A DNA stretch of 64,000 bases from Hymenobacter busanensis (GCF_008727865.1 NZ_VTWU01000003.1:558001-622000); one strand, 5' to 3'; positions 39,832-61,862 are shown, counted from the first letter of the stretch. Numbers and translations: made by a program. The notes: generated from the letters alone by a model not told the origin.

Positions 39832-39863
39832 CTTTCGGCCGACGCATGCCCCTCAGACCTTTG
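39832..39863 (+). promoter_or_regulatory. Late promoter-like element P1
   Basis: CTTTC (39832-39836) and CTTTG (39859-39863), starts 27 nt apart; extended left box gctttcggcc. Lies 8 nt before the terminase small subunit start. First of seven elements with the same spacing. Confidence 0.7.
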
Positions 39864-39871
39864 ATAGCGCC

Positions 39872-40633
39872 ATGAGTATTGAAGCGGACGACGCAGTAGA
39901 CGAGCAAGGGTTTACCACCAAGCAGCAACGGTTTGTGGAAGAGTACTGCGTGGACGGCAACGCCACCCAAGCGGCAAAACGCGCCGGCTACTCCCCATCG
40001 ACGGCGTATTCTATCGGGTCGGAGAACCTGAAGAAACCTGAGATTAAGGCTGCCATTGCCGAGCGGCTTGCCTCGCTCGCGCTGGGCCCGGCGGAGGTAA
40101 CCAAAATGACTTCCGAAATAGCGCAGTCGCGGCTCAATGACTACATGGTTATTCGGGAGGTGCAAGGCTATGAGCAAGTAGAACAGTATGTCACGGTACT
40201 CATCAGCCACGCCCGCAACGAGATCAAGCACCTAGAGGCCTTCATTGGGCGCAACAAGCTCACCAAGGAAAGTCGCAAGCCCTTTGATGAGAAGATAGCG
40301 GCGCTATACGAGAAGATAGCCGAATACGAATTTGAGGTAGACAAGTGGGGGGATGATGTTACCCGGCTGGTGCCCGGCCGCCCTGTTGTGCGCCGGGTTG
40401 CCGAACTGGACTTGGTTGCCCTGGCAGAAGCCAAAGATGGCGGCCGTATCAAATCCTTCAAGCACACGAAAGAGGGCGTTGTTGTCGAGACCTACGCCGC
40501 CGATGCCGCGCTGGATAAGCTGGCCCGCATGCACGGCCTCTACGAGAAGGACAACAAGCAACTGCAGCCGCAGCGCGTCGTGCGTCGCATCGGCGGCAAA
40601 TCGCCCGTAGCACCGGATGGAACGGGAGCTTGA
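39872..40633 (+). CDS. terS: Terminase small subunit
   Basis: Protein of 253 residues. The N terminus (FTTKQQRFVEEYCVDGNATQ, AAKRAGYSPSTAYSIGSENL, KPEIKAAIAERLA) is the DNA-binding helix-turn-helix of Terminase_2 small subunits. A helical middle supports ring formation. It recognises the packaging site and recruits the large subunit, whose gene it overlaps by 17 nt. Confidence 0.88.
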   Translation: MSIEADDAVDEQGFTTKQQRFVEEYCVDGNATQAAKRAGYSPSTAYSIGSENLKKPEIKAAIAERLASLALGPAEVTKMTSEIAQSRLNDYMVIREVQGYEQVEQYVTVLISHARNEIKHLEAFIGRNKLTKESRKPFDEKIAALYEKIAEYEFEVDKWGDDVTRLVPGRPVVRRVAELDLVALAEAKDGGRIKSFKHTKEGVVVETYAADAALDKLARMHGLYEKDNKQLQPQRVVRRIGGKSPVAPDGTGA

Positions 40634-42089
40634 GTTGGAAATACTGCCGGACGCGGTAAACGAGCGGTTCTTTCCCCTGTTCGATAACTACGACCGGTAC
40701 CTGCTGCTGTGGGGCGGTCGTGACAGCAGCAAAAGCGACTTCGTGGCCCTGAAGCTGTTGCTCGACTGCCTGACGCTGCCCTACTTCAAGTGCATTATGG
40801 CCCGCAAGATTGGCGACACGGTAGCCGATAGCCAATGGGCCACGCTCAAGGCCGTAGCCGAACGGGAAGGCATAGACGATCTGTTTACGTGGGGCATCAG
40901 TCCCTGCGTGATTCGCTGCAAGGGCAGCAAAAACCTCTTCGTGGCCCGCGGGCTCGACAACCCCAAGAAGGTGAAGTCGACCAAGGACCCGACGCATGCG
41001 TGGTACGAAGAGGCCAACGAAATCAGCGAAGACGACCACGACATTGTGGGCACCACCTTGCGCACCTCGCACGCCGGGGCAGTGATCCAGGAGGTGTTCA
41101 CCTTCAACCCTGACCACCAAGAAGACTACAAGAGCTTCTGGATCTGGAAGAAGTTCTTCGACGCGACGGGCCACGCCAACGACACCAGCTTTGCGGGCAG
41201 CATCGACGTGGAAGTGGACGACGAGGTGGTGCGCCGCCCGTTTACGGTGCTGCATTCCAGCATCCGCGACAACCGATGGGCGCCCAAGGAGCGGGTGGCC
41301 CAATACAAGGGCTACGAATTCACCAATCCGTACCGGTACCGCGTCTGGTACTTGGGCCTGTGGGCCAAGAAGGAAACCGGCAACGAGTTCTACCCGCGCT
41401 TCAGCCGGGCCACCCACGTAAAACCCACGGACTACGTACCGGGCGTCAACATCCTGCAATCGTGGGACGCCAACAGCCTGCCGTACTGCGCCATGCTCTG
41501 CGCCCAAGCCCTCGACACGCGCAGCCAGGGCGGGAAGCTGCAGCTGCGCGTGTTTCGGGAATACGCGCTGCGCAGCCCCAACAGCGGCATTCGCAACACG
41601 GGCCGGCAGTTCCTGTTGGACCGGCAGGCGCAGGGGTGGCAGCAGAGCAGCGTGTACTTGACGGGCGATGCTTCGCTGCGCAACCGCAAGGTGGGGGAGG
41701 AACGCGAAAGCAACTTTCAGGACGTGCAATCGGCCCTGATGGGCTTCGAAACCGTCGATGGCAACCGCATCCCGGGGGCCTTGCACGGCGATTCGGCCGA
41801 CCTCTGGCTACGGCGCAACCCCAACGTGGACCGCCGCCGCGACTTCATCAACTACTTGCTCGCAGGAGGCTTGCACAACGTAGAGGTGCAGATTGATCCG
41901 GCGTGCACCGAACTCATTGCCGATTTGGAGCTGACCCAGAAGGGCATCGACGGCAAGCTGAAGGAGAAGTACCACGACAAGGTGCTGGGCGCGACCTACG
42001 AGATACGCGGCCACTTCAGCGACGTGTTCGACTACTGGCTGTGCACGGTGTTGGCCGGCCAGTACGAAGCGTTCAAAGACGGGCGGTAG
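40617..42089 (+). CDS. terL: Terminase large subunit (PBSX/Terminase_3-like)
   Basis: Protein of 490 residues. ATPase domain: Walker A-type GGRDSSKS (residues 33-40), ARKIGDTVADSQW, Walker B HAWYEEANEI, and coupling motif FTFNPDHQEDY. Nuclease domain acidic residues are seen in LQSWDANSLPY, YLTGDASLRN and FDYWLCTV. It powers DNA packaging and cuts the concatemer. It starts within the end of terS. Confidence 0.92.
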   Translation: MERELELEILPDAVNERFFPLFDNYDRYLLLWGGRDSSKSDFVALKLLLDCLTLPYFKCIMARKIGDTVADSQWATLKAVAEREGIDDLFTWGISPCVIRCKGSKNLFVARGLDNPKKVKSTKDPTHAWYEEANEISEDDHDIVGTTLRTSHAGAVIQEVFTFNPDHQEDYKSFWIWKKFFDATGHANDTSFAGSIDVEVDDEVVRRPFTVLHSSIRDNRWAPKERVAQYKGYEFTNPYRYRVWYLGLWAKKETGNEFYPRFSRATHVKPTDYVPGVNILQSWDANSLPYCAMLCAQALDTRSQGGKLQLRVFREYALRSPNSGIRNTGRQFLLDRQAQGWQQSSVYLTGDASLRNRKVGEERESNFQDVQSALMGFETVDGNRIPGALHGDSADLWLRRNPNVDRRRDFINYLLAGGLHNVEVQIDPACTELIADLELTQKGIDGKLKEKYHDKVLGATYEIRGHFSDVFDYWLCTVLAGQYEAFKDGR

Positions 42090-42109
42090 CCCCGGGGTAT
42101 ATTGGCCCC

Positions 42110-42277
42110 ATGAACCTGCATTACCTGATTACCTATTGCTACCGGTGGCAACGAGCCACAGAAGAAGATCTATTGATTCCGGCCCCAGACCGCGCCACGG
42201 CTCTTCGGGCTTTTCGAAGCAGGTTTCCGCGTGGTTCGGGCGTGCTGGTTAAACGCGTGGAAGCGGTCTACAAATAA
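42110..42277 (+). CDS. Small hypothetical protein between terL and portal
   Basis: Protein of 55 residues (MNLHYLITYCYRWQRATEED ...), basic at its end. It starts 20 bp after terL. No recognised family. Confidence 0.5.
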   Translation: MNLHYLITYCYRWQRATEEDLLIPAPDRATALRAFRSRFPRGSGVLVKRVEAVYK

Positions 42278-42284
42278 GCACAGC

Positions 42285-42316
42285 CTTTCCGCCGAACCCC
42301 GCCCGCGGTTGCTTTG
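42285..42316 (+). promoter_or_regulatory. Late promoter-like element P2
   Basis: CTTTC (42285-42289), extended cctttccgcc, and CTTTG (42312-42316), 27 nt start to start. Lies 33 nt before the portal gene. Confidence 0.7.
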
Positions 42317-42349
42317 TCGTGCGGCCTTGCCACGCGGCCGCGCCTGCTT

Positions 42350-44191
42350 ATGAACGTAGAACAAGCCCGCGCCCGCGTCGAACCGCTGATTCTGACCGGC
42401 GGCACCCATCCCGACTACGCCCACTGCGTAGCGCACGCCGCGCGCAACCGCAAGTTCGCCACGGGCAACATCGCCTCGCTGCTCCGCCGCTACGTCAGCC
42501 GCGAGTCCGAAGCCGAGTTTGCCGTGCGCCAGGCGCTGACCATCAGCACCGCCCCGGCCGTGTGGAAGGAGCTGAGCACCCCGTTTCAGCAGGTCAGCCG
42601 CCTGAAGGGCAGCAACGTGGAACGCCGGTTCGACTACCCGGCCGACCTCTCCGACGACGAGCGCACCCGCCGCACGGCCATCCTGCTCTCGGCGGTCGAT
42701 CAGTACTACGCCAACCGGCCCATTGAGGACTATTTGGCCGAGCACGTCGTGCAGTCGGAAGCCATGACGGACCCGAACGCGTGGCTGCTCACGGAGTTTC
42801 TGCCTTTCGACTTCCGCACCGAGCGCGCCCGGCCCTACCCGGTGCTCATGCCCTGCGAGGCCGCCGTGGACTTCGCCCGCGTGGCCGGGGTGGTGGAGTA
42901 CGTCACGTTCCGCCTCGACGTGAGCGTGGACGGCATTACCGGCTCGCGCTACACCTGCTACCTCGACAACGAAAGCATCGACTACTGGCCCGTGCTCACC
43001 GTGGGCGGCGCCCAAGTATCCACGCTGCCCGCCGGCCGGCCCGCCGATGGGGTCTTGCGCAGCGAGCAGGGCACGCAGGTATGGGAGTACCGGGTGTTGC
43101 GCCACAATGCCGGCCGGGTGCCCGCGGCCCCCATCGGCTACGTGCCCGACCCCGAAACCCAGCGCCGCACCTTCGTGAGCCCCTTGCACCCGGCCCTGTG
43201 CTTCCTGGAAAAGGAACTCAAGACCGGCTCGGAGTTCGACGTGGTCATGGCCAAGGTCATGCACCCGCACAAAACCCAGTACGTGCCTGCCTGCCCGGGC
43301 GACGTGGCCCACCAGCAGGCCTGCATCAACGGCCGCAACCCCACGACCCAGGACACCTGCACCGTCTGCCACGGCTCCGGCCAAAGCCCCATTGCCACTT
43401 CGGCACTCGACGTGAACACGTTCCCGCTGCCCAAGGACATGGCCGACCTGAAGTTCAAGCTCTCGGAGATGGTGCACTTCAGCTCGCCCGACATCGGCAT
43501 TCCCAAGTTCCAGATGGAATACGCCGAGTACCTGGTGAAGCGGGCGCAGCGGACCTTGTTCAACACCGAAACGCTCTCGCAGGTCACCGTCGCCCGCACC
43601 GCCACCGAGCGGCTGGCCGAAGCCGACCAGAAGAACACGGCGCTCATGCCCTTGGCCGAATGCCTCTCGCGCCTCTACGTGCACGCGGCCACCGTCTCGG
43701 CGGCCTACGTCGACGTGGCGCAAGGCTTGTCGGTGGTGTACGAGTACCCCAAGGACCTGATTCCCCCGAGCCTGCAGGACCTCGAAGCCGCGTTTGGCGA
43801 GGCCCAGAAAGCCGGGCTCGACACCATGTACCTGGAGCAGAAGTACCGCGACATCATCCGCCGCAAGTTTGCCGACAACCCCGAAGAGCGGCGCAAGATG
43901 GAGGTCAAGCTACGGTTCGTACCATTCGTGGGTGGGTCGGATGCCTACGTGCTCCAACTGGCCGCCTTGGGCTACATCACAGCCGAAGAACGCGTACTAC
44001 GCACCCACCAGGACAGCATTTTCTACCGACTCGAAACCACCAACCCCAACTTCTACGACCTGGCCCCCGCCGCGCAGCAGCAGTTGGTCGACGCCGAAGT
44101 GGCCGCGCTGCTGGCGAAGCTGCCCAGCGCTACGGGGTCGGGCACGTTCCCCCGCGTAACCTTTAACCCGCCCGCCGCGGCAACCGCCTAA
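42350..44191 (+). CDS. Portal protein with inserted zinc-ribbon-like motif
   Basis: Protein of 613 residues in the position of the portal, between terminase and the MuF-like protein. Middle and end are portal-like: LKFKLSEMVHFSSPDIGIPK, YLVKRAQRTLFNTETLSQVT, RLAEADQKNTALMPLAECLS. Cys315, Cys325, Cys337 and Cys340 (C-x9-C-x11-C-x2-C, ending TCTVCHGSG like DnaJ zinc centres) suggest a small metal-binding insert. The portal forms the dodecameric ring through which DNA enters the head. The call rests on position, size and motifs rather than on a strict signature. Confidence 0.75.
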   Translation: MNVEQARARVEPLILTGGTHPDYAHCVAHAARNRKFATGNIASLLRRYVSRESEAEFAVRQALTISTAPAVWKELSTPFQQVSRLKGSNVERRFDYPADLSDDERTRRTAILLSAVDQYYANRPIEDYLAEHVVQSEAMTDPNAWLLTEFLPFDFRTERARPYPVLMPCEAAVDFARVAGVVEYVTFRLDVSVDGITGSRYTCYLDNESIDYWPVLTVGGAQVSTLPAGRPADGVLRSEQGTQVWEYRVLRHNAGRVPAAPIGYVPDPETQRRTFVSPLHPALCFLEKELKTGSEFDVVMAKVMHPHKTQYVPACPGDVAHQQACINGRNPTTQDTCTVCHGSGQSPIATSALDVNTFPLPKDMADLKFKLSEMVHFSSPDIGIPKFQMEYAEYLVKRAQRTLFNTETLSQVTVARTATERLAEADQKNTALMPLAECLSRLYVHAATVSAAYVDVAQGLSVVYEYPKDLIPPSLQDLEAAFGEAQKAGLDTMYLEQKYRDIIRRKFADNPEERRKMEVKLRFVPFVGGSDAYVLQLAALGYITAEERVLRTHQDSIFYRLETTNPNFYDLAPAAQQQLVDAEVAALLAKLPSATGSGTFPRVTFNPPAAATA

Positions 44192-44397
44192 TGACCACAC
44201 CCCGACGCAAGCCCGAGCAATGGCTGGGCACGAGTGCCCAATACAAGCGCCTGCAACGCCGCGGCGTCTTGGTCCCCGGCTCGCTCAATGCCGCCGATGG
44301 GTCGGTGGGCGTTGCCACGGCCGCCGGCCCGGTTGTCTGCCGCCTCAACGAGTTCATCGTAGCCGAAGCCACCGGCTACAGCGTAGCGCCCGCGTAA
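44191..44397 (+). CDS. Small hypothetical protein after portal
   Basis: Protein of 68 residues (MTTPRRKPEQWLGTSAQYKR ...), basic. It overlaps the portal stop by 1 nt and abuts the MuF-like gene. Likely a small head or connector factor; no recognised family. Confidence 0.6.
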   Translation: MTTPRRKPEQWLGTSAQYKRLQRRGVLVPGSLNAADGSVGVATAAGPVVCRLNEFIVAEATGYSVAPA

Positions 44398-45300
44398 ATG
44401 AGCCCCGAAGAAGCCGCCCGCCAACGCCTCGCCGCCATTCAGTCGTTGGAAGACGAGCTGGCCGGGCATTTGTCGGCTATCCAACGGCGCCTGTACGAAG
44501 GGCTGCTGCTGCGCCTGCAAGACACGCTCGACAAGCCCGAGCTGCTACCGGGCCTGCTGGCGGAGTTCACCCAGTCGGTGTACCTGCCCTTCGTGGCCTA
44601 CTACGGGCAAAGCGTGCTCACGCTCGCCGGGCTGCAAATCCGCTACTTCTCCGCCGTCGACGGCTCGACCAACTACGCCGCCCTCCGCCGCCCGTTAGAA
44701 GCCTACCTGCGGCAGTCGTTCGGCATCGATGCCGCTGGCAACCTGACGCCGGCCGGCTACTTGGCCACGTTCGTGGGCGACACCTCCGCCCAACGCGCGC
44801 TGCTCCAGTACGCCTACCGCTCCCAAGCCGCCGGGGTAGGGCTGCGGGAGTACCAGCAGGGCTTGAGCGACCTGGTGCAGGGTTCCAGCGACAAACCCAC
44901 CCAGGGCCTCTACCACCAGTTGCACCGCGACGCGCCCGACACCTACCAGCGCGCCGACCGGGCCCTGCAAGGACTCGCGGCCGAGGAACTGCAGTTGCAG
45001 GCGGCCTTGTACCAGGGCGGGCTCATCGACAGCAGCCGCCCGTTCTGCGTGGCGCGCAACGGCAAGGTGTTTCTGCGGGAGGAAATAGCGCGTTTCGGCA
45101 CGGCGAAGGATACCTACGGGGGCTACAGCAACAAGAAAGCGGGGGAGTTCCACGGCAAGAACGCCGACTACAACCCGCTCACCGATGCCGGCGGCCACAA
45201 CTGCCGCCACGGGTACCACTTCATTCCCAACAGCGTGGCCATGCGCCTGCGGCCGGAATTGAAAGAAGACGGGAAAGGAGTACTCTATATCGGGGAATAG
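44398..45300 (+). CDS. MuF/SPP1 gp7-like head morphogenesis protein
   Basis: Protein of 300 residues. Helical N-terminal two thirds; C-terminal part RPFCVARNGKVFLREEI and GGHNCRHGYHFIP carry the Cys/His pattern of phage Mu gpF-like minor head proteins. These associate with the portal and enter the procapsid in a few copies. Position right after the portal agrees. Confidence 0.78.
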   Translation: MSPEEAARQRLAAIQSLEDELAGHLSAIQRRLYEGLLLRLQDTLDKPELLPGLLAEFTQSVYLPFVAYYGQSVLTLAGLQIRYFSAVDGSTNYAALRRPLEAYLRQSFGIDAAGNLTPAGYLATFVGDTSAQRALLQYAYRSQAAGVGLREYQQGLSDLVQGSSDKPTQGLYHQLHRDAPDTYQRADRALQGLAAEELQLQAALYQGGLIDSSRPFCVARNGKVFLREEIARFGTAKDTYGGYSNKKAGEFHGKNADYNPLTDAGGHNCRHGYHFIPNSVAMRLRPELKEDGKGVLYIGE

Positions 45301-45335
45301 TGGTAGGTTGGGGCTTCACTTAACCGCTGCTATCA

Positions 45336-45629
45336 ATGGCAAACGAACAAACTCCATTACCAGAAAACGAAGTGGTTGCTATCAGCATGTCACAGGCTGA
45401 ACACATGCTTGCCTCCATGCTTGTGCTTGATCGAATCGAACAGCGCGTCAAGCAGCAGCACGAAATGTTGTTGCTGATTCTCTCTAAGGTCGCCCCGGGC
45501 GAGTACAAAGAGGAGGATTACGACTTAAAGGGCGGTGGTGATGGCGCCCTAGTGGCCTTGAAAGGAATTGAAGCTGACATTCAGTTCACCAAGCAACTCC
45601 TTGGCATGGGCAAAGCCACCGGCAAGTAG
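45336..45629 (+). CDS. Hypothetical phage protein
   Basis: Protein of 97 residues, helical and acidic (SMSQAEHMLASMLVLDRIEQ). Followed 21 bp later by a strong terminator, so it closes the portal unit. No recognised family. Confidence 0.55.
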   Translation: MANEQTPLPENEVVAISMSQAEHMLASMLVLDRIEQRVKQQHEMLLLILSKVAPGEYKEEDYDLKGGGDGALVALKGIEADIQFTKQLLGMGKATGK

Positions 45630-45650
45630 GCTCAAGCACATCCACACCGA

Positions 45651-45680
45651 AGCCCCGCCCGAACACGGCGGGGCTTTTTG
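45651..45680 (+). terminator. Rho-independent terminator
   Basis: Stem agccccgcc / ggcggggct followed by ttttt. It ends the portal unit, 175 bp before late element P3. Confidence 0.85.
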
Positions 45681-45681
45681 T

Positions 45682-45840
45682 TTACATCCGGCTCACCGTG
45701 CGCAGCCGCCGGTTGAAGCCGCTGACCACATACGGGCCCACCGTGGCTACCACGAAGCCGCTCGGCGCCAGCTGCAACAGGTGTCGCCGCAGCCACAGGC
45801 GAATCAGGCGGGAGCCGTAGGGGTGCTTGGGAGTGGGCAT
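45682..45840 (-). CDS. Possible small minus-strand gene in the late region
   Basis: Frame of 52 codons (MPTPKHPYGSRLIRLWLRRH ...), very basic, with a hydrophobic middle (LAPSGFVVATVGPYVVSGF). Just before its ATG, on the minus strand, is TACCTTTG (plus 45851-45844), a perfect TAnnTTTG match, which would make a nearly leaderless message; no good -33 box is seen. It fills a gap that otherwise holds no gene. It could be a chance frame. Confidence 0.35.
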   Translation of the reverse strand: MPTPKHPYGSRLIRLWLRRHLLQLAPSGFVVATVGPYVVSGFNRRLRTVSRM

Positions 45841-45854
45841 GCCCAAAGGTAGGG

Positions 45855-45886
45855 CTTTCGGGTAGCGCATCGGGCGGCGTGGTTTG
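45855..45886 (+). promoter_or_regulatory. Late promoter-like element P3
   Basis: CTTTC (45855-45859), extended gctttcgggt, and GTTTG (45882-45886), 27 nt start to start, within ggcgtggtttg. Lies 40 nt before the gene at 45927, after the terminator at 45651. Confidence 0.7.
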
Positions 45887-45926
45887 AGTCCACAAGCAAG
45901 TGGTTCTCACCCAACGCCTCCCTGTT

Positions 45927-46256: not shown

Positions 46257-46257
46257 C

Positions 46258-46470: not shown

Positions 46471-46493
46471 CGCCGCACAACACCTATCCAGCA

Positions 46494-47381: not shown

Positions 47382-47417
47382 GGCCCTTCGCGCCGGGCTG
47401 CTCATCCCCTCTGTATC

Positions 47418-48449
47418 ATGGCTGCTGGCGACTTCTCTGCCTCTACCTTGTCCACTGTTATCGAAAAACAGGAGGACCTTTTCAAAGACCCCCGCAATTC
47501 CCGGCTGTACGCCCCCAAGGCAGAAGCCCTGCTGGAAATCATCCGCATGCAGACGGCCAACGTCTCGCTGTTGAACACGTCGGCCCAGAACAAGGTCAAG
47601 ATTGCCTTCGTCAACACGTCGGCCATCACGACCCAGGACTGCACCAACGAATGCGCCCCGGACGGCACGCTGCTGCAAACGGCCGCCCAGGAGTTTACCC
47701 TGAGCCAGTGCGTAGAGGCTACCCCGTTCCGCGTGGAAGTGCCGTTGGGCGCCGAGCCGGATAGCGTGTACGCCAACGGCGTGTACGGCCTGCCCGACGC
47801 GGTTGCCGCCGGCATGCTCAAGCAGGAGAAGGAAATCGTGGAGAAAATGGCGGCTGTGTCGCTGGGCTTGGTGGCCGCCAAAGCCGGCACCAACCAAGAC
47901 CCCGCCCCCGAGTACGGCGCGGTCATTGCCGGCACCAACACCACGATTCCCGCCGCCAACTGGACGGCCAATATCTTTCCGTTCTTCCAGCTGGAAGCCG
48001 AGTTGAACCGCTTCGGCATGCCCTACATGCTGCACGGCCGCAACCTGTACCTGGAGAAGCTCAACGCTGTTCCCAACGCGCAGAACGACGACCAGCGCGA
48101 CGAGCAGGCCAAGTACGACCTGATCGAAAGCGCCTGGGACCCCTTCAGCTTCCAGCGTGCGGCCCTGACCAACATTTCGCTGATGGTCGACGCCGGTGCT
48201 ATTGCCTTCGGTGCCCGCAACGAGTACGGCGCCGCTGTGGTGGAGGCCGAAGCCAACGTGCGCGTGTTCAGCATTGCTTCGCGCTTCGTGCCCGGCGTGC
48301 GCTTCGACGTGAAGAAGATCCGCAAGTGCGTGAACGGGGTGTACTTCGACGTGTACACGATGAAGGCCCCGTACTTCGACATCATCAACAACCCCGCGAA
48401 CGGCATCACCGGCGACACCGGCGTGCTCAAGTTCACCAAGGGGGCGTAA
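47418..48449 (+). CDS. Major capsid protein
   Basis: Protein of 343 residues, a usual size for an HK97-like or related major capsid protein. It follows the scaffold and is followed by a hairpin, suiting high expression. Features: helical N terminus (STVIEKQEDLFKDPRNSRLY), beta-rich body, and ending FDVYTMKAPYFDIINNPANG. No signature motif was recognised, so the call rests on size, position and composition. Confidence 0.72.
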   Translation: MAAGDFSASTLSTVIEKQEDLFKDPRNSRLYAPKAEALLEIIRMQTANVSLLNTSAQNKVKIAFVNTSAITTQDCTNECAPDGTLLQTAAQEFTLSQCVEATPFRVEVPLGAEPDSVYANGVYGLPDAVAAGMLKQEKEIVEKMAAVSLGLVAAKAGTNQDPAPEYGAVIAGTNTTIPAANWTANIFPFFQLEAELNRFGMPYMLHGRNLYLEKLNAVPNAQNDDQRDEQAKYDLIESAWDPFSFQRAALTNISLMVDAGAIAFGARNEYGAAVVEAEANVRVFSIASRFVPGVRFDVKKIRKCVNGVYFDVYTMKAPYFDIINNPANGITGDTGVLKFTKGA

Positions 48450-48475
48450 GGCTCTGCAGTAGCTGATGTAGGTGC

Positions 48476-48503
48476 AGAAGCCCGGCCGCTTGGTCGGGCT
48501 TCT
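48476..48503 (+). terminator. Terminator-like hairpin after capsid gene
   Basis: Stem agaagcccg / cgggcttct, extendable by three pairs, with a weak T tail (tctc). It lies 26 bp after the capsid stop and just before late element P4, so partial read-through is likely. Confidence 0.6.
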
Positions 48504-48514
48504 CTCGTTGGTGG

Positions 48515-48546
48515 CTTTCGGCCGCACGGCCCGGCGGCGTCTTTTG
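48515..48546 (+). promoter_or_regulatory. Late promoter-like element P4
   Basis: CTTTC (48515-48519), extended gctttcggcc, and TTTTG (48542-48546), 27 nt start to start. Lies 21 nt before the gene at 48568. Confidence 0.7.
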
Positions 48547-48567
48547 GGTACCGCTACTGCTCCGACC

Positions 48568-49560: not shown

Positions 49561-49565
49561 GCACC

Positions 49566-49853: not shown

Positions 49854-49855
49854 CC

Positions 49856-51067: not shown

Positions 51068-51069
51068 CC

Positions 51070-51708: not shown

Positions 51709-51709
51709 T

Positions 51710-52760: not shown

Positions 52761-52765
52761 CGCCC

Positions 52766-52797
52766 CTTTCGGCTGGCCCGGTTTCGGGCGTGGTTTG
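52766..52797 (+). promoter_or_regulatory. Late promoter-like element P5
   Basis: CTTTC (52766-52770), extended cctttcggct, and GTTTG (52793-52797), 27 nt start to start. It shares the stretch tttcgggcgtggtttg with P6. Only 4 nt separate it from the tape measure ATG, which implies a leaderless or nearly leaderless message. Confidence 0.75.
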
Positions 52798-52801
52798 AGG
52801 C

Positions 52802-55800
52802 ATGGACGTAGGGACCGTATACAAGCTCGATATTTCCGAGGCGCTGGCTGGATTCGACAAAATCAGCCAAGCCGATGCGCAGTTTCGCGCCACCGTGCAG
52901 CAAACCGGCGCCCAGGCCAAGAAGTCGTTTAGCGACGCCGCCCAAGCCGCCATCGACCTGCAGAACAAGCAGGCCGCCGCCACCGCCGAAGTGGCCAACG
53001 CCGCCGTGGTGCACCGCGAATTGCGCGGGGTGCTCAACGACTTGCGCGCCGCCGAGAAGGATCTGGAAAAGGAACGCCGCACCAGCAAAGCCGGCGAGCA
53101 GGCCGCCAAGCTCACCGGCGAGTTGCGCCGCAACCGCGAGGAACAGGCGCGGGTGCGGGCCGAAATCAAGCTCACCGAGCAGGCCATCAACGAAGAAAGG
53201 GAGGCCGCCAGCCGAATCAAGGAGGAGCTGCGCGCCCAACAGCAGGCACAGAAGCTTACCACTGCCGCCGGCCGTGATGCCGCCGCGGTGGCAAAGCAGC
53301 GCGCCAAAGAGGAAAAGGAAGCAGCGGCAGCAGCTGAGAAATCCGTTCGCTCCGCCGGCATATTGACCCAACTGGAGCAGAAGCTTACAGACCTGACCGA
53401 ACGCCGGGCCAAGGCCTCCACCCGCACGGAAGTGCGCGGGTATAACAAGCAGATCCAGGACACCCAAAAGGAGATTGCAGACCTCAAAGGAGAGGCCGAC
53501 AAAACCGGGGGCGCTGTAGGCGGTATGTTCGGTCGATTCGCGGGGGCGGCTGGCGCGGCGGCCGCTGTAGGTATCGTTGTCGGCTTCGTAAAGAACCTGG
53601 CTGACCAAGTCATTGAGGCTGGCAAGAAAGCCGACGCAACACTGGGCAAGTTGCAGTTTGCCCGCGGCGGCGACCTGGAAAAAGCGGCGGCAGATGGGCG
53701 GCAACTCGCATTCGAGGCCGAACGGTTGGGCCTCAACCTGAACTCGGCCGGCGCCTCTTACGGTAGCTTTACCGCCGCAGCCGCAGCGGGCAACTTGCCG
53801 CTGGCTGAAGCCCGCCGCCTGTACTTGGCCGTGGGCGGGGCTGCTGCTGTGCTTAAGGTCAGCTCTGAAAACACGGAAGGCGCGCTGCTTGCTCTGCAAC
53901 AAATGGTGAGCAAGGGCACTGTATCGGCTGAAGAACTCAGGGGGCAGCTCGGGGAACGGCTGCCCGGCGCATTCGCCATTGCTGCCCGCGCCATTGGGGT
54001 AACCGAAAAAGAACTGGGCAAGATGCTGCAGCGCGGCGAAATTGCTGCCTCAGACTTCCTCCCCAAGTTTGCCCGGGAGCTGGAGAAGACCTTTGGCGAC
54101 GGCACCGCGCAGGCTGCCAATTCATTGCAGGCCAACACCAACCGCATTGACAACGAATGGCAACGCTTTCTGCTGCGCTTCACCAGCGCAACGGGCCGCG
54201 CCGTGTCGTCCATTGCCAAATTCAGCAAGCAGGCCAACGATTTTCTGGATGGGCTGACCCCAGAAGGCCAAGCGGACCTAGCAGCGACCAGGGCCGCGGC
54301 AGGCGTTAAGCGTTATCAAACCCGGCTGGAAAAGGCACTCGACCAGACGGCGACAAGCGCCAAACAACGGGGTGGCAACGTGGCGGAGGCGGTTGAGCGC
54401 GGGCTCGACGTGAACCAAGCGCGCCTGCAAAAGAGCCTGGCGGAAGCAGAGGCCGTGATGAAGAAGTACAGCAGCCCGGGCTACATTAATGAGTTCAACG
54501 CAGCGGGTGGCGGGGGGTACAACGAATTGCGTCCACTCATTGAAGCTAACCAGCGGCGGGTAGCCTTGCTTCGGGGCGAATTACAGGCATTGCAGGATGT
54601 GCGCGTGGCCCGGAAGAAGGCCACCGAAGACGAAGACAAGAACCTGCAGGGCCTAATTGAAAAGCAGCAGTTGCTTATCAAGAACCTGCAAGACCGCCAA
54701 AAAGCTGCCCGCAATGAAAACGCCGGGGATGGGGCAGACTTTCTGTTCGGTAAAGGCGGACTGAACCAGCAGTTGGCCGCCGCCCAAAAGGAACTCGACC
54801 GGCTGCTGGGCAAGGTGGAGAAAGGCGCCAAGCAGCGCGCTAACGCCCTGGCAGCTGCCTTGCGGGCCCTGTACGCCGAAGAGGAGCGGCTGCGCAAGGA
54901 CGCGGCGCGCATGGAGCTAGCCCAACTCAAAGACGAGGGGCAGGCCCGCGCTGCCGAACAACTGCGCCAGTCGTTGGCCGAAATCAACCGCACCGAGCAG
55001 CTGCTCAAAGACAAGGAAGCTGCCGTGCGCAAAGCCGGTGGCCGTGGAGGCAATGCCGATGGAGTCATTGACGGCGTGCAGGCCAAGCAGTTGACCGCGT
55101 TGCGCCTGGCGGCCCTCGATGCGTATTACACCGACCTGCTGCGCATCAGCGAAGCCCGCGAGCAGCGCCTGTTCGACCTGCGCGCCGATAGCGACGCCAA
55201 AGAAGTAGAGGCTGTCAACCGCAAGTACGACAAGCTCGTAGCGGCTGCCCGGGGCAACGCGACCGAGTTATTCGCCATTGAACAGGCCCGCGAGCGAGAC
55301 CTGTTGGCGCTGCGGTTTCAGCAGCAGCAGAAAGCGATTGACGAAACGGCCCAGATAGGCCGCGACACCGTGGCGGCAACCATTGGCGAGGTGTACGGTA
55401 CCGGCACCGGCATCAGCGAGATTGAGGCAAAGCGCGCCGAGAAGAAAGCGTTGCTCGAAATCGACCGCAAGCACGCCCAGGACACGCTCAACAACACGCT
55501 GCTGCTCACCGGCAAGCAAGGGGAGATAAGCCGTCAGGCGGCTGAAGCCGAGCTGGCCCGCATCAAGAACGCCCTGAACGCACTGGAACAGGAGAAGCGG
55601 CGCCACGCCCCCGAAGACTTCCTGTACAAACTCATTCTGGGGGAAGACGACAACGAGGAAAACCGACGCGACTTAGACGAAACGGTTGCCATAGCCGAGC
55701 AGACCTACCGGAAGGTGTTGGAGGCACAACTTCAGTCCGCGCAAGCCTCCATCGATGCCAAAACGCGGCAGGTGGATGAGGTGCAACGCGAGCTGGACCG

Positions 55801-56536
55801 CGAGCTGGAGTACCAAAAGGCCGGCAGTGCCAGCAGCGTCAACGCCAAGCGGGAAGAAATTGCCCAGCTCAAAGCCGAACGCCGCCGTGCCATCGAAGAC
55901 CAAAAGCAGGCCCAGCGGATTCAGTTGGTACTCGACAGCGCCGAACAATCCTCCAGCCTCTTCACCGCGTCGGCCAACATCTACAAGGGCACCTCCAAAC
56001 TCGACGCGGTTTTGCCGGGCTTGGGGGTGGCAGCTGGCACCGCCATTACGGCGCTGCTTGTTGGGGCTTTCGTGGGCAGCAAGCTGAAAGCGTTGCAGGC
56101 CATTAACAACCAAGGATCTGGTTATTTCAAAGGGGGATATACGGGGGGCGACTCCATTCGAGAAGAGCGGGGCCCGGTACACGGCAAGGAGTTTGTTTTC
56201 GACAACGAGAAAACCAGCAAGTACCGCTTTAGCCTGTTCGAGCCCCTGCACACCGGCAAGCCCATTGATTGGGGCCATCCGACCCTGGCGCCGCTGTTGC
56301 CCGACCTCGACGCCCCGAAGCAACTGCGGGAAGCACGCCAAGCAGCCTTGCAGGTGCAGCACCACCACACCTTCGCGCCGTTGCAGGCTGGCATTGACCG
56401 CATGGAAGCGCGTATGAAGGCCGTGGAAAGCCACGTTTCCCGCTTGCCCTACACCCAAACCACGATTATGCCGGACGGGACCGTGGTGGAAACCAACCTG
56501 GAGAACGGCGGCACGGCGAAGACACGGATTGTATAA
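52802..56536 (+). CDS. Tape measure protein
   Basis: Protein of 1244 residues, the longest in the prophage. Long coiled-coil N terminus; a hydrophobic patch (FGRFAGAAGAAAAVGIVVGF) near residue 240; the tape-measure N-terminal domain around residues 280-450 (LALQQMVSKGTVSAEELRGQ, LGERLPGAFAIAARAIGVTE, EIAASDFLPKFARELEKTFG); more coiled coils to about residue 1050; and a second hydrophobic stretch (LPGLGVAAGTAITALLVGAF). It sets tail length and is ejected with the DNA. At roughly 0.15 nm per residue, a tail of about 185 nm would be expected. It is driven by P5. Confidence 0.93.
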   Translation: MDVGTVYKLDISEALAGFDKISQADAQFRATVQQTGAQAKKSFSDAAQAAIDLQNKQAAATAEVANAAVVHRELRGVLNDLRAAEKDLEKERRTSKAGEQAAKLTGELRRNREEQARVRAEIKLTEQAINEEREAASRIKEELRAQQQAQKLTTAAGRDAAAVAKQRAKEEKEAAAAAEKSVRSAGILTQLEQKLTDLTERRAKASTRTEVRGYNKQIQDTQKEIADLKGEADKTGGAVGGMFGRFAGAAGAAAAVGIVVGFVKNLADQVIEAGKKADATLGKLQFARGGDLEKAAADGRQLAFEAERLGLNLNSAGASYGSFTAAAAAGNLPLAEARRLYLAVGGAAAVLKVSSENTEGALLALQQMVSKGTVSAEELRGQLGERLPGAFAIAARAIGVTEKELGKMLQRGEIAASDFLPKFARELEKTFGDGTAQAANSLQANTNRIDNEWQRFLLRFTSATGRAVSSIAKFSKQANDFLDGLTPEGQADLAATRAAAGVKRYQTRLEKALDQTATSAKQRGGNVAEAVERGLDVNQARLQKSLAEAEAVMKKYSSPGYINEFNAAGGGGYNELRPLIEANQRRVALLRGELQALQDVRVARKKATEDEDKNLQGLIEKQQLLIKNLQDRQKAARNENAGDGADFLFGKGGLNQQLAAAQKELDRLLGKVEKGAKQRANALAAALRALYAEEERLRKDAARMELAQLKDEGQARAAEQLRQSLAEINRTEQLLKDKEAAVRKAGGRGGNADGVIDGVQAKQLTALRLAALDAYYTDLLRISEAREQRLFDLRADSDAKEVEAVNRKYDKLVAAARGNATELFAIEQARERDLLALRFQQQQKAIDETAQIGRDTVAATIGEVYGTGTGISEIEAKRAEKKALLEIDRKHAQDTLNNTLLLTGKQGEISRQAAEAELARIKNALNALEQEKRRHAPEDFLYKLILGEDDNEENRRDLDETVAIAEQTYRKVLEAQLQSAQASIDAKTRQVDEVQRELDRELEYQKAGSASSVNAKREEIAQLKAERRRAIEDQKQAQRIQLVLDSAEQSSSLFTASANIYKGTSKLDAVLPGLGVAAGTAITALLVGAFVGSKLKALQAINNQGSGYFKGGYTGGDSIREERGPVHGKEFVFDNEKTSKYRFSLFEPLHTGKPIDWGHPTLAPLLPDLDAPKQLREARQAALQVQHHHTFAPLQAGIDRMEARMKAVESHVSRLPYTQTTIMPDGTVVETNLENGGTAKTRIV

Positions 56537-56555
56537 AATCCGTATCATAGCAGCC

Positions 56556-57119
56556 ATGATTCGTTGCGTTATCCTCCTGATCCTGTGTTGTGCTTACCTG
56601 CCGAGCCTTGCGCAACTGCCCGATGATTATTTTCAAAAGCTGCCCCTGTCACAGCCAGACACCATCCACCTAGGCTTTTCCGAAGAAATAGACAAGCGTT
56701 ATGGGTTTAGGGGCCTGCGTTTTGAAACGCCCTTCCAACAAATAAAAGGGCTGCAGTACACCGGCAGCAGCGGCCCGCACAAACTGTATCGGAAGGTGCC
56801 GGAGAACAAAACCCTCGGCAACTGCAAGCTCGACGCTGTTTTGTACGCCTTTTACAAAGGACGACTGGCCAGCATCTTGGTAACGACCAGCGGCGACGAC
56901 AACTCCGTGGAACTCATTCGCATGTTGACGCTTGCATACGGCGAGCCGTTTCACGAAGAAGAAAGCGATAAATGGTTGTGGGAGGGCAAGAAGGCCGTCG
57001 CGCTCTTCGGCGTGAACGATGACGGCTCCACCTCGGTCTACATCAGCAGCAAAATCATGTCGACCCAACTAGAGCGAGACGAGAACACGAGGCGGCAGCG
57101 CGCCGCCTCCGGCTTATAA
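56556..57119 (+). CDS. Prophage-borne exported protein of unknown function
   Basis: Protein of 187 residues with a clear signal peptide (MIRCVILLILCCAYLPSLAQ) chosen at the ATG at 56556. The mature part (LRFETPFQQIKGLQYTGSSG, WLWEGKKAVALFGVNDDGST) looks like a small periplasmic domain, not a virion part. A 6-bp inverted repeat (cggatt ... aatccg, 56525-56542) lies over the tape measure stop. It is a cargo (moron-like) gene with the lipoprotein gene next to it. Confidence 0.72.
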   Translation: MIRCVILLILCCAYLPSLAQLPDDYFQKLPLSQPDTIHLGFSEEIDKRYGFRGLRFETPFQQIKGLQYTGSSGPHKLYRKVPENKTLGNCKLDAVLYAFYKGRLASILVTTSGDDNSVELIRMLTLAYGEPFHEEESDKWLWEGKKAVALFGVNDDGSTSVYISSKIMSTQLERDENTRRQRAASGL

Positions 57120-57128
57120 CCCACTCCT

Positions 57129-57596
57129 ATGAAAACACTGCTTGCCCTTGCTTCAGCGCTCATCCTGCTCGCCGGCTGTGATTCCGACAGCAAAAAAGAG
57201 GATGCCAAACCATCGGGCACCCCCAAGACGCTGACATGCACGATTGAAGGCCGCTCGTTTAGCCGCACCGCCAAGGCGCGGTTCCAAGCAGCTTCGGCTT
57301 CCACCGCCAACCGCGACGTGCTGAGCATTTCCACCGACGCGCCGCCCGCAGGCTCGCCCAACGAATACGTTACGGTCTTTTTCAACAAGGCTCCAGGCGC
57401 CCCCAACAGCGACTACAAGCTGACTTCGGTGTACTACGATGCCACGACCAACGCCACCATATACGAGGATGAGGGCCCGGCTACGCTAAGCAAAACCGCC
57501 AGCGGGTGGTCGGGTACTTTTTCGGCCTCGATTACGCGCCCTTCCGGCGTGGTGTTGAAGGTGGAAAACGGCGTATTCACGGACATACCCGAGTAA
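57129..57596 (+). CDS. Prophage-borne lipoprotein
   Basis: Protein of 155 residues with a lipoprotein signal (MKTLLALASALILLAGC; lipobox LLAGC) and a charged spacer (DSDSKKEDAKP). The mature domain is beta-rich. It starts 9 bp after the exported-protein gene. Phage-encoded lipoproteins often block entry of related phages; that role is inferred only from class and position. Confidence 0.78.
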   Translation: MKTLLALASALILLAGCDSDSKKEDAKPSGTPKTLTCTIEGRSFSRTAKARFQAASASTANRDVLSISTDAPPAGSPNEYVTVFFNKAPGAPNSDYKLTSVYYDATTNATIYEDEGPATLSKTASGWSGTFSASITRPSGVVLKVENGVFTDIPE

Positions 57597-57602
57597 GGCT
57601 GC

Positions 57603-57634
57603 CTTTCCGCCGCTCGGCTTTCGGGCGTGGTTTG
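57603..57634 (+). promoter_or_regulatory. Late promoter-like element P6
   Basis: CTTTC (57603-57607), extended cctttccgcc, and GTTTG (57630-57634), 27 nt start to start. Only 4 nt before the tail hub ATG, as with P5. Confidence 0.75.
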
Positions 57635-57638
57635 TCCC

Positions 57639-59747
57639 ATGCCCGTCTTCGACCTCGACGCCCCCCGGCGGTTCTTCCTTACCGTGCGCGGCCGCACCGT
57701 GCCGGCTGCTCCCGTGCTGGAGCAAGTACTGACGCGGGAGCCGGGAAGTGACGATGCCGCCTATTTCCGCGACAAGCTCGGCAGCGAGTGGTCCTTTACT
57801 GGCGACGACTTCGCGCTGCTCTACGCGCTGGAAAACAGCAAAGACCGGTGCGAAGAAATTGGCATCCGCATGGAGGTGCCCTTGGTTGCGTCCGGTTTTG
57901 CCACGGTGTACCGGGGTGTCTTCACCTGCACCGAGGTAAGTTGGGACCTGGACCGGTGTACCGCCACGGTGTCGCCCACCGCCGACGACGGGTACCGGTT
58001 GCTGCTCGAAGCATGGGAAAAGGAAGTTAACCTGCTCAGCGCGCCGGGCTTTAACGGCACGGGCGCGGCGCTGCAGACCATCACGGCCAATATCCGCAAC
58101 CTGGTGGGCAGCAGCGACCCGTTGCAGCAAACGGGCTTCAAGGTAGCCTTCAAGCGCACCGACGACACGGCCGTAAACGACGAATTGGGCGTTGACGGCT
58201 GGGCGGAGTTTCTGCGCAACAAGAGCTACATCAGCGCCCCGCTAACCGGCGGGCCCGTGACCGCCTCGGGAACCCGGGACCATACCGTTATTCTGTTTCG
58301 GTACGAGCTGCACAACGTTGCGCTGACACTCGAACCGTTGAGCGGCGAGTACATCGTGCCCGACAAAAGCGCGGCCGGGTGGCAGTTCTTCAACCGCGAC
58401 GACTCGGTTTCGCCGCCCGTTGCCTCCTATGTCAAGACGCCCGAAATCAGCGGCTTCAAGCCCTACCTGATCGGCACCTACAACGACTGGAAGCACTTCG
58501 GCAACGGCTCGCGCCCCAAGTACGGCAACGACCTGCTGCTGCTGCCGTGCGGCCAGAAGCCCAGCGACTACCAGTTCAGCAACAGCGACTATTTGGAGGT
58601 AACCGGACCCGAAGGCGCCCACAACGGGAGCCAACTAGGGGATAGTTGCTGGCCCTGCCTCAACACGCGCCGCGTCACCACGCAACCCAACTGCACGAGC
58701 TTGTGGTGGCGCTTCGGGGCGTTCCGCTTCACCCGCTGCTTGCCCTTGGTCGACGCGCTGCACCACGTGCTGCAGCAAACCGCCCCCCAGCTCACGCCGC
58801 CCAGCCCGGCCCAGCTGTCCACGTTCCTGGTGAGCGCCCTGAACCCGGCCACCGGGGCGAGCGGCATCTACAACGAAGTGCCCCGCCTGTGCGTGGCCGC
58901 CGGCTCCGACGTGAAGCGCTACGGCGCCTCCGAGCCGGCCACCCGGCTGCTGATCAGCGCCAAGACCTTCGTGCAAGACCTGTGCACGCTCTACGACCTG
59001 CGCTGGGACCTCGACCCGGGCACGGGCTGGTTTCGCCTGGAGCACCGCAGCTTCTTCGAGGCCCGCAGCGCCAACACGCTGGACTTAACGGCTTACCCGA
59101 ATGCCACCCTGCCCGGGCGCTACAAGGGCCGCACCCAGGTGCTGCCCGCCCGCGAGCAACTGGCCATCAGCGCTGCACTGAGCGAAGAACCCGCCACGGG
59201 CCTTTCGTTTGCCGCGGCCGAGTGGGTCTACGACGGGGCGTGCGTCAACCAGCGCGAGGGCCAAAACCGCAGCGTGCGCAGCGTCTCGCGTCTGACGGGG
59301 GATGTAGCGGGCATGGTCTTGTCGGGCAACGCGTTGCCCGACGAAGCGGTGGTGCTGCTGGCCAGCCTGCCGTCGGGCGAGTTGTACGAGGGCAACCGCA
59401 AGGTGTCGGCGTCGGAACTGTTGCGCCGCTACCACCGCCACGGCCGCGCCCGGCCCCAGGCCGTGTTTGGCCCCACGGGTGCCCTCTTCGACATGGCCTC
59501 GGTGCGCCCGGGCCGCGAGCAGGACGCCTGCACCGTGCCCCGCCGGGAAGGGCTGAGCGGGCTTGATGCCACCGCCCGGCTGGTTACCAACCTCTCGGCG
59601 CAGGCCGAGTTGGGCAAAGCCACCTGGGACCTGTCGACGGGCAAGGTGACGGTGGTGCCCTTGCTGCCCGCCCTTGCCAGCACCGCCGAGGGGCCCTTGC
59701 CCGCCGAGCGCCAGTTCAACGATTCCTTTTCCGATCAGTTCGCCTGA
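57639..59747 (+). CDS. Large tail protein (hub/baseplate candidate)
   Basis: Protein of 702 residues starting MPVFDLDAPRRFFLTVRG. Beta-rich, with DFALLYALENSKDRCEEIGI early and a C-terminal part with HTVILFRYELHN, ISAKTFVQDLCTLYDLRWDL and a Tyr/Arg-rich end. Size and place after the tape measure fit a distal tail or hub protein. No catalytic motif recognised. Overlaps the next start by 1 nt. Confidence 0.65.
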   Translation: MPVFDLDAPRRFFLTVRGRTVPAAPVLEQVLTREPGSDDAAYFRDKLGSEWSFTGDDFALLYALENSKDRCEEIGIRMEVPLVASGFATVYRGVFTCTEVSWDLDRCTATVSPTADDGYRLLLEAWEKEVNLLSAPGFNGTGAALQTITANIRNLVGSSDPLQQTGFKVAFKRTDDTAVNDELGVDGWAEFLRNKSYISAPLTGGPVTASGTRDHTVILFRYELHNVALTLEPLSGEYIVPDKSAAGWQFFNRDDSVSPPVASYVKTPEISGFKPYLIGTYNDWKHFGNGSRPKYGNDLLLLPCGQKPSDYQFSNSDYLEVTGPEGAHNGSQLGDSCWPCLNTRRVTTQPNCTSLWWRFGAFRFTRCLPLVDALHHVLQQTAPQLTPPSPAQLSTFLVSALNPATGASGIYNEVPRLCVAAGSDVKRYGASEPATRLLISAKTFVQDLCTLYDLRWDLDPGTGWFRLEHRSFFEARSANTLDLTAYPNATLPGRYKGRTQVLPAREQLAISAALSEEPATGLSFAAAEWVYDGACVNQREGQNRSVRSVSRLTGDVAGMVLSGNALPDEAVVLLASLPSGELYEGNRKVSASELLRRYHRHGRARPQAVFGPTGALFDMASVRPGREQDACTVPRREGLSGLDATARLVTNLSAQAELGKATWDLSTGKVTVVPLLPALASTAEGPLPAERQFNDSFSDQFA

Positions 59748-60703
59748 TGCTCAACCCGCACACGTTCCCCTTCGCGGCCGCGGGACGGCCCTTGCCCGAC
59801 GCCGAGCTGCCGGCCTGCGCCGAGCAGCCCTACAGCCTGCCGGCCCCGGCCGACCGGTTCCTGCCCTTCTGCCTCACGCGCCCCGCCAACCCGGCCAGGC
59901 GCCTCGACTGCGCCCGGGTGGTGCGAGCCGACACCGGCGCCGTGCTCGTGACGCTGAGCCTGACCGGCGGCACGTACCCGCTCGACGTGGAGAAGCGCAC
60001 CGATGGGCAGACGGATTACTTTCTCTACTACGGGGCCATCGTGCCGGGCCTGAGCCTGCCCTGCGGCATTCCGCTGCGGTTGGTGGTCGATGAGTTTACC
60101 AGCGTGCGGTTTTCGGCCATTGCCGACCTCTCGGGCTATTTGCTGCTCGAATGGTACCACGACGGGCCGCTGGCCGGCATTCCCTACGGGGCTGGGATGC
60201 GGCAGCGCCTGTACGTGGAAGCCGGGGCGCTGCGCTTCGGGCCGCCGCGGCAGGACATCGAAGAAACCCAAGACAAGGCCACGGGCACCAAGCGCACGGA
60301 TTTTCTGGCCCTTACGCGCACGGCTACGTTTACGGTGCCGCCCGCGGCCTCGTACCTCGTGCAAGCCGTGCACGCGGCGCGGGCCCACCGCTACTTCGAA
60401 GCCGGCGGGTTGCCGCTCGCCGTCACCGACACCAAGCAGAGCGACTTCGGCACCGACGTGTGCCGCTGGACGCTTGACGTGACGGTGGAAGACGTGGACG
60501 TGTTGGTGGCCCGCGGCTGCCCGGCCCCGCTGCCGGTGCTCGACGTGGCCCCCTATACGCCCCGGCCCTACGTGTGCGGCGACACGAGCGACGTGGCCCC
60601 CGACTGGCAGCGCAAGCACCCGGTCGAAACCGAATGCGAGCAGGACGCGGCCCCGGAGTGGCGCCGCAAGGTCCCGTTCGAAACCCAGTGCGAACCCCTC
60701 TGA
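59747..60703 (+). CDS. Tail protein with repeated Cys-containing tail
   Basis: Protein of 318 residues, beta-rich. The end holds two copies of a 19-residue unit (SDVAPDWQRKHPVETECEQ and then DAAPEWRRKVPFETQCEP). Similar W...ET.C patterns open the next gene product. Likely a distal tail component. Confidence 0.6.
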   Translation: MLNPHTFPFAAAGRPLPDAELPACAEQPYSLPAPADRFLPFCLTRPANPARRLDCARVVRADTGAVLVTLSLTGGTYPLDVEKRTDGQTDYFLYYGAIVPGLSLPCGIPLRLVVDEFTSVRFSAIADLSGYLLLEWYHDGPLAGIPYGAGMRQRLYVEAGALRFGPPRQDIEETQDKATGTKRTDFLALTRTATFTVPPAASYLVQAVHAARAHRYFEAGGLPLAVTDTKQSDFGTDVCRWTLDVTVEDVDVLVARGCPAPLPVLDVAPYTPRPYVCGDTSDVAPDWQRKHPVETECEQDAAPEWRRKVPFETQCEPL

Positions 60704-60706
60704 CCT

Positions 60707-61186
60707 ATGGCCAACACCGGCCGCATCCGCTACCGCGAAATCGACCAGAACCCCAACAGCCCCACCTTCAACACGGAGCGGTGGAGCGACTGGGTGACGG
60801 ACGAAACCGCGTGCCCGCCGCCGACGCGCTACAACTCCGCCACGATCAGCGAGCTGGTGCAGCGCAACGACTGCACGGGCGGGCTGACGGGCACGTTTGT
60901 GCGCTACACGGTGGAGGCGGGGGCGTTCTTCAGCTACATCAGCCAGGCCGATGCCGACGCGCAGGCCCAGGCGCATTTTGACGACACCTACCAGGCCTAC
61001 GCCAACGCCAACGCCACCTGCCAGAGCGGCAGCAGCGGCATTACGTGGCTGCCGGTCTACACCGGCACCTGCTTTGCCTGCCTGATGGAAAACAGCCAGG
61101 ACCCCACGGACCGCCGCCCCTCGACGGCCGCCGAAAACACGCAGTACTACACCGGGTTGCCGTGCGTTGCCTGCGAATCCGAATAA
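60707..61186 (+). CDS. Cys-rich tail protein with DUF5977-like segment
   Basis: Protein of 159 residues. RNDCTGGLTGTFVRYTVEAG then ADADAQAQAHFDDTYQAYAN ending NATC resembles DUF5977, found in Bacteroidota surface and phage tail proteins. Further Cys in TCFACLMEN and PCVACESE. Probably structural. Confidence 0.65.
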   Translation: MANTGRIRYREIDQNPNSPTFNTERWSDWVTDETACPPPTRYNSATISELVQRNDCTGGLTGTFVRYTVEAGAFFSYISQADADAQAQAHFDDTYQAYANANATCQSGSSGITWLPVYTGTCFACLMENSQDPTDRRPSTAAENTQYYTGLPCVACESE

Positions 61187-61216
61187 TCTTTTCTCACCCC
61201 AAACCCCAACCCCGTC

Positions 61217-61801
61217 ATGGCTGTAAACCCCGACGACCCGACCATCCCGGTCAACTGCGAAGACGCCGTACTGCCCACCGGGCTGGCGGCGGCCGATTGC
61301 TACACGCCCGAACTCAACTACGGGCCCATTGTCAACCTCTACCTGACCAAGACGCCGTTTGCCGCCCCGCCGACGCTCGTGGAAGTCACGCGCCGCTTGG
61401 CGCTGGCCAGCACCGACGACGAGCAGCTGGTGGGCCCCATCGTGGTGCAGCTGAGCCGCGCCGCCGCCACGGGCAACACCATCCGCGTCAACGGCGTGGA
61501 CTACGACGCGGCCACGGTCTCGTCCTACGACGTGACCATGCAGGACACGAGCGACGCCAACTACGACCTGGCGCGCGCCACCCAGGGCGGGGGCATCAAG
61601 CGCTACGTGTACGGTGTGGATCAGAACAACAACTGGTTCGGCGGCCAGAACGGCATCACCGGCGGGCAGAGCACCATCAAGCTGCGCGTGGTGCTGCCCA
61701 CGGGCGAAACCGACCTGCAGACCCTGACGGGTACCGTGTCGGGCCTCGGCAAGTTCGACCCGAAACGCATTGCCTCGCCGGTGGCGGCCGTCTTCGGCTA
61801 A
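61217..61801 (+). CDS. Tail structural protein (possible tail tube)
   Basis: Protein of 194 residues, beta-rich (YVYGVDQNNNWFGGQNGITG, TLTGTVSGLGKFDPKRIASP). Size, strand-rich make-up and the strong terminator right after it suit an abundant tail protein such as the tube, though its place after the tape measure is not the usual one. Call uncertain. Confidence 0.5.
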   Translation: MAVNPDDPTIPVNCEDAVLPTGLAAADCYTPELNYGPIVNLYLTKTPFAAPPTLVEVTRRLALASTDDEQLVGPIVVQLSRAAATGNTIRVNGVDYDAATVSSYDVTMQDTSDANYDLARATQGGGIKRYVYGVDQNNNWFGGQNGITGGQSTIKLRVVLPTGETDLQTLTGTVSGLGKFDPKRIASPVAAVFG

Positions 61802-61820
61802 GCCGCGCAGCCTGTGCCGC

Positions 61821-61861
61821 AAGCGCCTGCCTTTCCGCCGGGAAGGGCAGGCGCTTTTTTT
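61821..61861 (+). terminator. Strong terminator overlapping element P7
   Basis: 11-bp stem AAGCGCCTGCC / GGCAGGCGCTT with part-paired inner bases and a run of seven T. It follows the stop at 61801 by 19 bp. Confidence 0.88.
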
Positions 61862-61862
61862 G
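61831..61862 (+). promoter_or_regulatory. Late promoter-like element P7, inside terminator
   Basis: CTTTC (61831-61835), extended cctttccgcc, and TTTTG (61858-61862), 27 nt start to start. The left box is in the hairpin and the right box is the T run of the terminator. It lies 23 nt before the fibre gene. Confidence 0.6.

Follow-up and report, generated by a model that had tools for sequence, protein, structure and literature searches.

The late genes of a prophage of Hymenobacter busanensis are headed by seven copies of a two-box sequence element. These are probably activator-dependent late promoters that use a degraded sigma-A -7 box in combination with an exchangeable left box. The prophage (G000) spans the window, the whole analysed stretch of 64,000 nucleotides, from about 26.9 kb onwards; a repressor, a Rha-like regulator, replication genes, terminase, portal and tape measure were recognised. 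Relatives were found by a TerL search of 204 Hymenobacteraceae genomes. G006 (TerL identity to G000 51-54 %) and G052 (61-63 %) form group A together with G000. The seven elements are listed with predicted transcription starts (+1) and counterparts in related prophages.

39832..39863, + strand: late promoter-like element before terS (ATG 39872), predicted +1 at 39868; counterparts in G006 (right box TTTC) and G052
42285..42316, + strand: late promoter-like element before portal (ATG 42350), predicted +1 at 42321; counterparts in G006, G052, G074, G051 and G126
45855..45886, + strand: late promoter-like element ahead of gene 45927 ('scaffold unit'), with +1 predicted at 45891; counterparts in G006, G052, G051 and G074
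48515..48546, + strand: late promoter-like element ahead of gene 48568 ('connector unit'), with +1 predicted at 48551; preceded by a terminator-like hairpin in 5/5 phages
52766..52797, + strand: late promoter-like element ahead of the tape measure gene, leaderless start predicted with +1 at the A of ATG 52802; G006 counterpart with right box TTCG at the same 4-nt distance
57603..57634, + strand: late promoter-like element ahead of gene 57639 ('tail hub'), leaderless start predicted with +1 at the A of ATG 57639; 4-nt distance kept in 5/5 phages
61831..61862, + strand: late promoter-like element ahead of gene 61886 ('fibre'), with +1 predicted at 61867; it overlaps a terminator

PHROGs supported terS, terL, the tape measure and, weakly, the portal, and to this extent the gene names of the initial annotation stood; 'scaffold', 'connector', 'hub' and 'fibre' had no family match and are kept here as its labels.

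A pattern search with CTTTCSG-N21-TTTG returned seven matches in the window, every one on the + strand and preceding late genes. The sites and the distance of 27 nt from the start of CTTTC to the start of NTTTG had been proposed in the initial annotation, and all seven were exact to the nucleotide. The elements are intergenic in a late region of which called genes leave about 8 % uncovered. Gaps between TTTG and start codon, in the order of the sites 8, 33, 40, 21, 4, 4 and 23 nt, agree with the 4 to 40 nt before the first gene of a block given earlier. Dinucleotide shuffles of the window contained on average 0.05 matches and at most one. In the genome of 4.89 Mb there were 13, seven in the prophage and six further copies; the rate elsewhere gave an expectation of 0.014 matches for the late stretch of 22 kb (Poisson P ~2e-17). 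At least four of the six chromosomal copies fall within long ORFs, and the element is absent from all 229 host upstream regions, which led us to reject the regulon of a host alternative sigma factor (ECF). The family consists of several copies on one strand, upstream of late operons only. The expected enrichment at late phage genes was borne out by the genome scan, the pattern being rare in chromosomal as well as in shuffled sequence, and it also recurred in related prophages. An exact-pattern scan of viral contigs gave single scattered matches consistent with chance.

Seven elements in G006 and six in G052 share the left box and the orthologous gene starts with G000, and in all 20 group A elements of the three phages the box spacing is identical at 27 nt. 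Two G006 elements were located via the left box alone; their right boxes have one mismatch (TTTC, TTCG) and lie at exactly 27 nt, a distance for which these sites were not selected. The prophages account for five of nine pattern matches in G006 and six of eight in G052, and elsewhere in the 204 genomes scanned the pattern occurred at background level. In G051 and G074, most structural proteins are 30-60 % identical to those of G000, and elements occupy the corresponding places with an unchanged right box and another left box. The left box of G051 is CGTAGGG; it precedes TTTG by exactly 20 nt at four sites, and two more sites have near matches. That of G074, TTTCCGGCC, precedes TTTG or TTTC by 28-29 nt at four sites. 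The elements of both phages were picked by eye after G000, and the genome-wide test covered CGTAGGG of G051, for which four of five matches of this type in the genome fall in the prophage. G000 and G006 are of the same genus; a second genus comprises G052, G051 and G074, which have three different left boxes. As judged from this comparison, the left-box type goes with the phage and not with the host genus, since G052 shares the box of G000 and G006 and yet differs from G051 and G074 of its own genus. Among phage isolates no close relative was found, and scans of viral contigs with the portal and the 38782 family (see below) returned this prophage and one other contig only.

The Bacteroidota sigma-A promoter consists of -33 TTTG and -7 TAnnTTTG (PMC7366714, PMC9723704), the latter occupying -12 to -5 in Flavobacterium psychrophilum (PMC9723704). 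Dyad enrichment in the host upstream regions recovered de novo a -7 box of about [GC]TA[TC]CTTTG, with TTG enriched 22-24 nt before the TA, and the spacing of the late elements fits this arrangement. Applied to them, the F. psychrophilum frame places TTTC at -35 to -32, the place of the -33 box, within a left box extending from -36 to -28 relative to the predicted start. The initial annotation had read the elements in this way, with the spacing of a -33/-7 promoter, TTTC as -33 box and an absent TA, and position and spacing indeed match. Seven of nine left-box bases are invariant or nearly so across the 20 sites, and CC follows CTTTCGG in 17 of them, at a position that was unselected. The -7 box is degenerate and not intact. 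Right boxes are mostly GTNCTTTG or GTGGTTTG: each base of TTTG is present at 19-20 of 20 group A sites, whereas TA is replaced by G at -4 (16/20) and T at -3 (15/20) relative to TTTG, likewise at unselected positions, so that the right box departs from TAnnTTTG. At the distance of a -33 TTTG/TTG box, 19-21 nt before TA, all 20 have TTTC. In G051, three of six sites have TTTG as -33-type box and five of six retain the A of TA. Spacing, the TTTG of the -7 box and the predicted distance to the start are those of sigma-A promoters, but GT mostly stands for TA and CTTTCGGCC, TTTCCGGCC or CGTAGGG for the -33 box.

The elements are very likely promoters, and by analogy to the T4 middle and P2 late promoters they are likely read by host sigma-A together with a phage activator. 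Each would start its own late transcription unit of a temperate tailed phage. The right box, as a degraded TAnnTTTG, would be read by sigma region 2; CTTTCGGCC would replace the -33 box and have as its reader a late-acting phage activator or a sigma region 4 remodelled by the activator, so that, as the initial annotation suggested, an activator or an altered polymerase would be required. If the left box is read by a late-acting factor, the promoters would be expected to stay off in the lysogen and to be switched on jointly upon induction. Sequence, spacing, position, recurrence and terminators were observed; promoter activity, start points, activator and silence in the lysogen are inferred from them. 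Relatives would have kept promoter places and right box and exchanged the left box, presumably along with the activator. Put forward tentatively, an as yet undescribed activator family would redirect host sigma-A to a crippled -7 box via a phage-specific -33 box, the late mRNAs would be mostly leaderless, and activator and left box would form an exchanged specificity cassette.

In T4 middle promoters, sigma appropriation by MotA/AsiA brings a phage box into the place of the host -35 element (PMC2988021). Common to both systems would be a phage-specific box in place of the -35-type element, at a fixed distance from a -10-type box, and many scattered promoters responding together. T4, however, needs an excellent -10, whereas the host-type box is degenerate here, and the genes served are the late genes of a temperate Bacteroidota phage, in which no MotA/AsiA relatives were seen. 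P2 late operons are headed by TGT-N12-ACA sites read by the small activator Ogr (PMC3931495). P2 likewise is a temperate phage with several late operons, each with a copy of a consensus site, but its site is a dyad and CTTTCGGCC is asymmetric and located at -33; the alignment of the 20 sites from -75 contained no conserved TGT-N12-ACA dyad. Assignment to the T4 middle or the P2 late class is not supported. Our searches of the open-access literature turned up no class of late promoters for those tailed Bacteroidota phages that rely on the host polymerase, and the elements would represent a variant of phage-controlled late promoters in a phylum for which none was found described. They supply seven precise predicted starts, a consensus sequence and three naturally occurring specificity variants as a basis for finding the activator. 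Such promoters would offer orthogonal, induction-controlled tools for Bacteroidota and would test the extent of leaderless translation in their phages.

A divergent phage sigma or sigma-like protein contacting both boxes would explain that both deviate from the sigma-A consensus (GT for TA, TTTC for TTG), and several small phage proteins of no known function are present. We consider this unlikely: Pfam models for sigma region 4 detected no such domain in the prophage, by which a phage sigma factor was rejected, and the right box retains the host TTTG, in G051 with the A of TA in five of six sites, while the left boxes are entirely different, which points to a reader of its own for each box. 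It is quite improbable that the elements are sigma-A promoters of the ordinary kind whose -33 region is unusual, working with no phage factor and timed by the repressor or by read-through. Position and spacing equal those of sigma-A promoters, and the sigma-A motifs of F. psychrophilum vary around TAnnTTTG (PMC9723704), but the element occurs in 0/229 host upstream regions, host sigma-A alone hardly accounts for a left box that is nearly invariant in 20 sites and yet not shared by sister phages from one host genus, and constitutively promoted late genes would harm the lysogen. Activator-dependent promoters are preferred over both.

Of 32 elements, 11 have a hairpin with a T-rich tail directly upstream or overlapping them; for random late positions the number was 37 of 600. 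Terminator-like hairpins occurred at both the connector and the fibre junction in 5/5 phages.

48476..48503, + strand: intrinsic terminator-like hairpin directly upstream of the 48515 element, stem of 12 with 1 mismatch
61823..61854, + strand: intrinsic terminator hairpin (z -3.35) containing the left box of the 61831 element, whose right box is the T-run

The copy at 61831 doubles as a strong intrinsic terminator, and element and terminator overlap at the fibre junction of G000, G006, G052 and G074, so the end of one unit and the beginning of the following one may be set by a single sequence. This copy and the position at module borders would also suit elements that are not promoters and act as terminators, translation signals, operators or recombination linkers, and start-associated sequences of mycobacteriophages are another case of repeated elements near gene starts (PMC3203893). 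Such readings are highly improbable. RNA structure was rejected as the common feature, as only 61831 folds clearly better than shuffles and six of seven copies show nothing unusual; a translation signal is at odds with start-codon distances of 4 to 48 nt at a fixed box spacing; and linkers would be alike throughout, whereas only two short boxes are kept and the left one is exchanged. The cluster K mycobacteriophage sequences (PMC3203893) are likewise short repeats beside gene starts; the present elements differ from them in consisting of two boxes at fixed spacing, in their promoter geometry and in their restriction to late-block starts.

For the activator-dependent promoters, transcription would start 5 nt past TTTG, at about half of the sites on or beside the A of the start codon, which would yield leaderless mRNAs. 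If TTTG is taken to occupy -8 to -5, +1 falls on the A of ATG when the gap to the start codon is 4 nt, and the gap was never below 4 nt in 32 late elements or in 50 host TAnnTTTG sites. It measured 4-8 nt in 18 of the 32 late elements, with a full range of 4 to 48 nt. Gaps of at most 9 nt occurred in 18/32 late elements versus 5/50 host sites (P 9e-6; P 7e-4 when only host gaps up to 60 nt were counted). Before the hub gene the gap was 4 nt in 5/5 phages, before the tape measure in two. Start codons were taken from the gene caller, so single distances may shift; the fibre-site ATGs of G052 and G074 were read straight from the sequence. These short distances predict leaderless mRNAs. Leaderless starts are not general, since leaders of 17-40 nt are predicted at three group A junctions (portal, scaffold, connector). 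In F. psychrophilum the measured leaderless fraction is 5.5 % (PMC9723704); in B. thetaiotaomicron, 5' UTRs shorter than 10 nt account for about 3.7 % (PMC7366714).

No relatives of MotA, AsiA or Ogr were found among the prophage proteins searched. Few non-structural genes are common to G000 and G006: Rha, 33202, HNH, helicase, 38782 and 39291. The last two lie just before the late region, with a further left-box copy between them.

38782..39210, + strand: 142-aa protein, weak late-activator candidate; family only in five phages with elements, broken in G051
39239..39270, + strand: related element before the 39291 gene, left box and no TTTG at 27 nt; kept in G006 and G052 with CTTCG at +17
39291..39830, + strand: 179-aa helical protein just before terS, second activator candidate; also in four phages where no such elements were found

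The limitation of the 38782 family to the five phages with elements and its location just before the late region make it a candidate, if a weak one, for the late activator. ORF 38782-39210 matched no family and no fold. The 39291-39830 protein is a second candidate, weakened by the occurrence of its family in four phages in which no such elements were found. AlphaFold models reached a pLDDT of 66 (poor) for 38782-39210 and 74 for 39291-39830; Foldseek and VIA-align returned nothing convincing for either. Identity within the 38782 family was highest within left-box groups, but the contrast of 11 points was hardly better than the 10 each of the portal and the 52482 gene, and an assignment of the activator by covariation was rejected. 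In G051 (L061 6890-7215) the 38782-family gene is split between two frames; the late elements there are seemingly intact.

The copy at 39239, together with one at 30353, had been suggested as a possible weak or decayed member of the family. It is probably not decay, because it is conserved in G006 and G052, and it may be a regulatory site in its own right, serving the gene that precedes terS. An inverted or nearly inverted copy, CCGAAAG or GCAAAG, was observed just ahead of the start codon in the G006 and G052 counterparts. For the 30353 copy no conserved counterpart was found, leaving the earlier interpretation unsupported.

Early phage genes have canonical promoters, one of them around a palindromic operator, and no canonical promoters were found between the late genes.

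27507..27536, - strand: canonical-like promoter TTG-N19-TATTGTTG upstream of the repressor gene 26894-27418
28532..28561, + strand: canonical sigma-A-like early promoter TTG-N19-TATACTTG around the palindromic operator ACCGAAACTTCGGT
33149..33179, + strand: canonical-like promoter upstream of the 33202 early gene

The divergent canonical promoters and palindromic ACCGAAACTTCGGT-type operators at 27418-28580 constitute an early control region, and G006 has a similar ACCGAAACTTCGGT-type operator ahead of its gene at 809. The early region also encodes a stand-alone Peptidase_S24 domain protein (PF00717; 29155-29607), separate from the repressor gene 26894-27418, and a D12-class adenine DNA methyltransferase (32018-32860). 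Among the late genes, the orthologues of 47418-48449 in G006 and G051 are 78 % identical, while neighbouring genes reach 30-45 %; by this identity pattern it is a recent single-gene exchange between phages of different left-box class.
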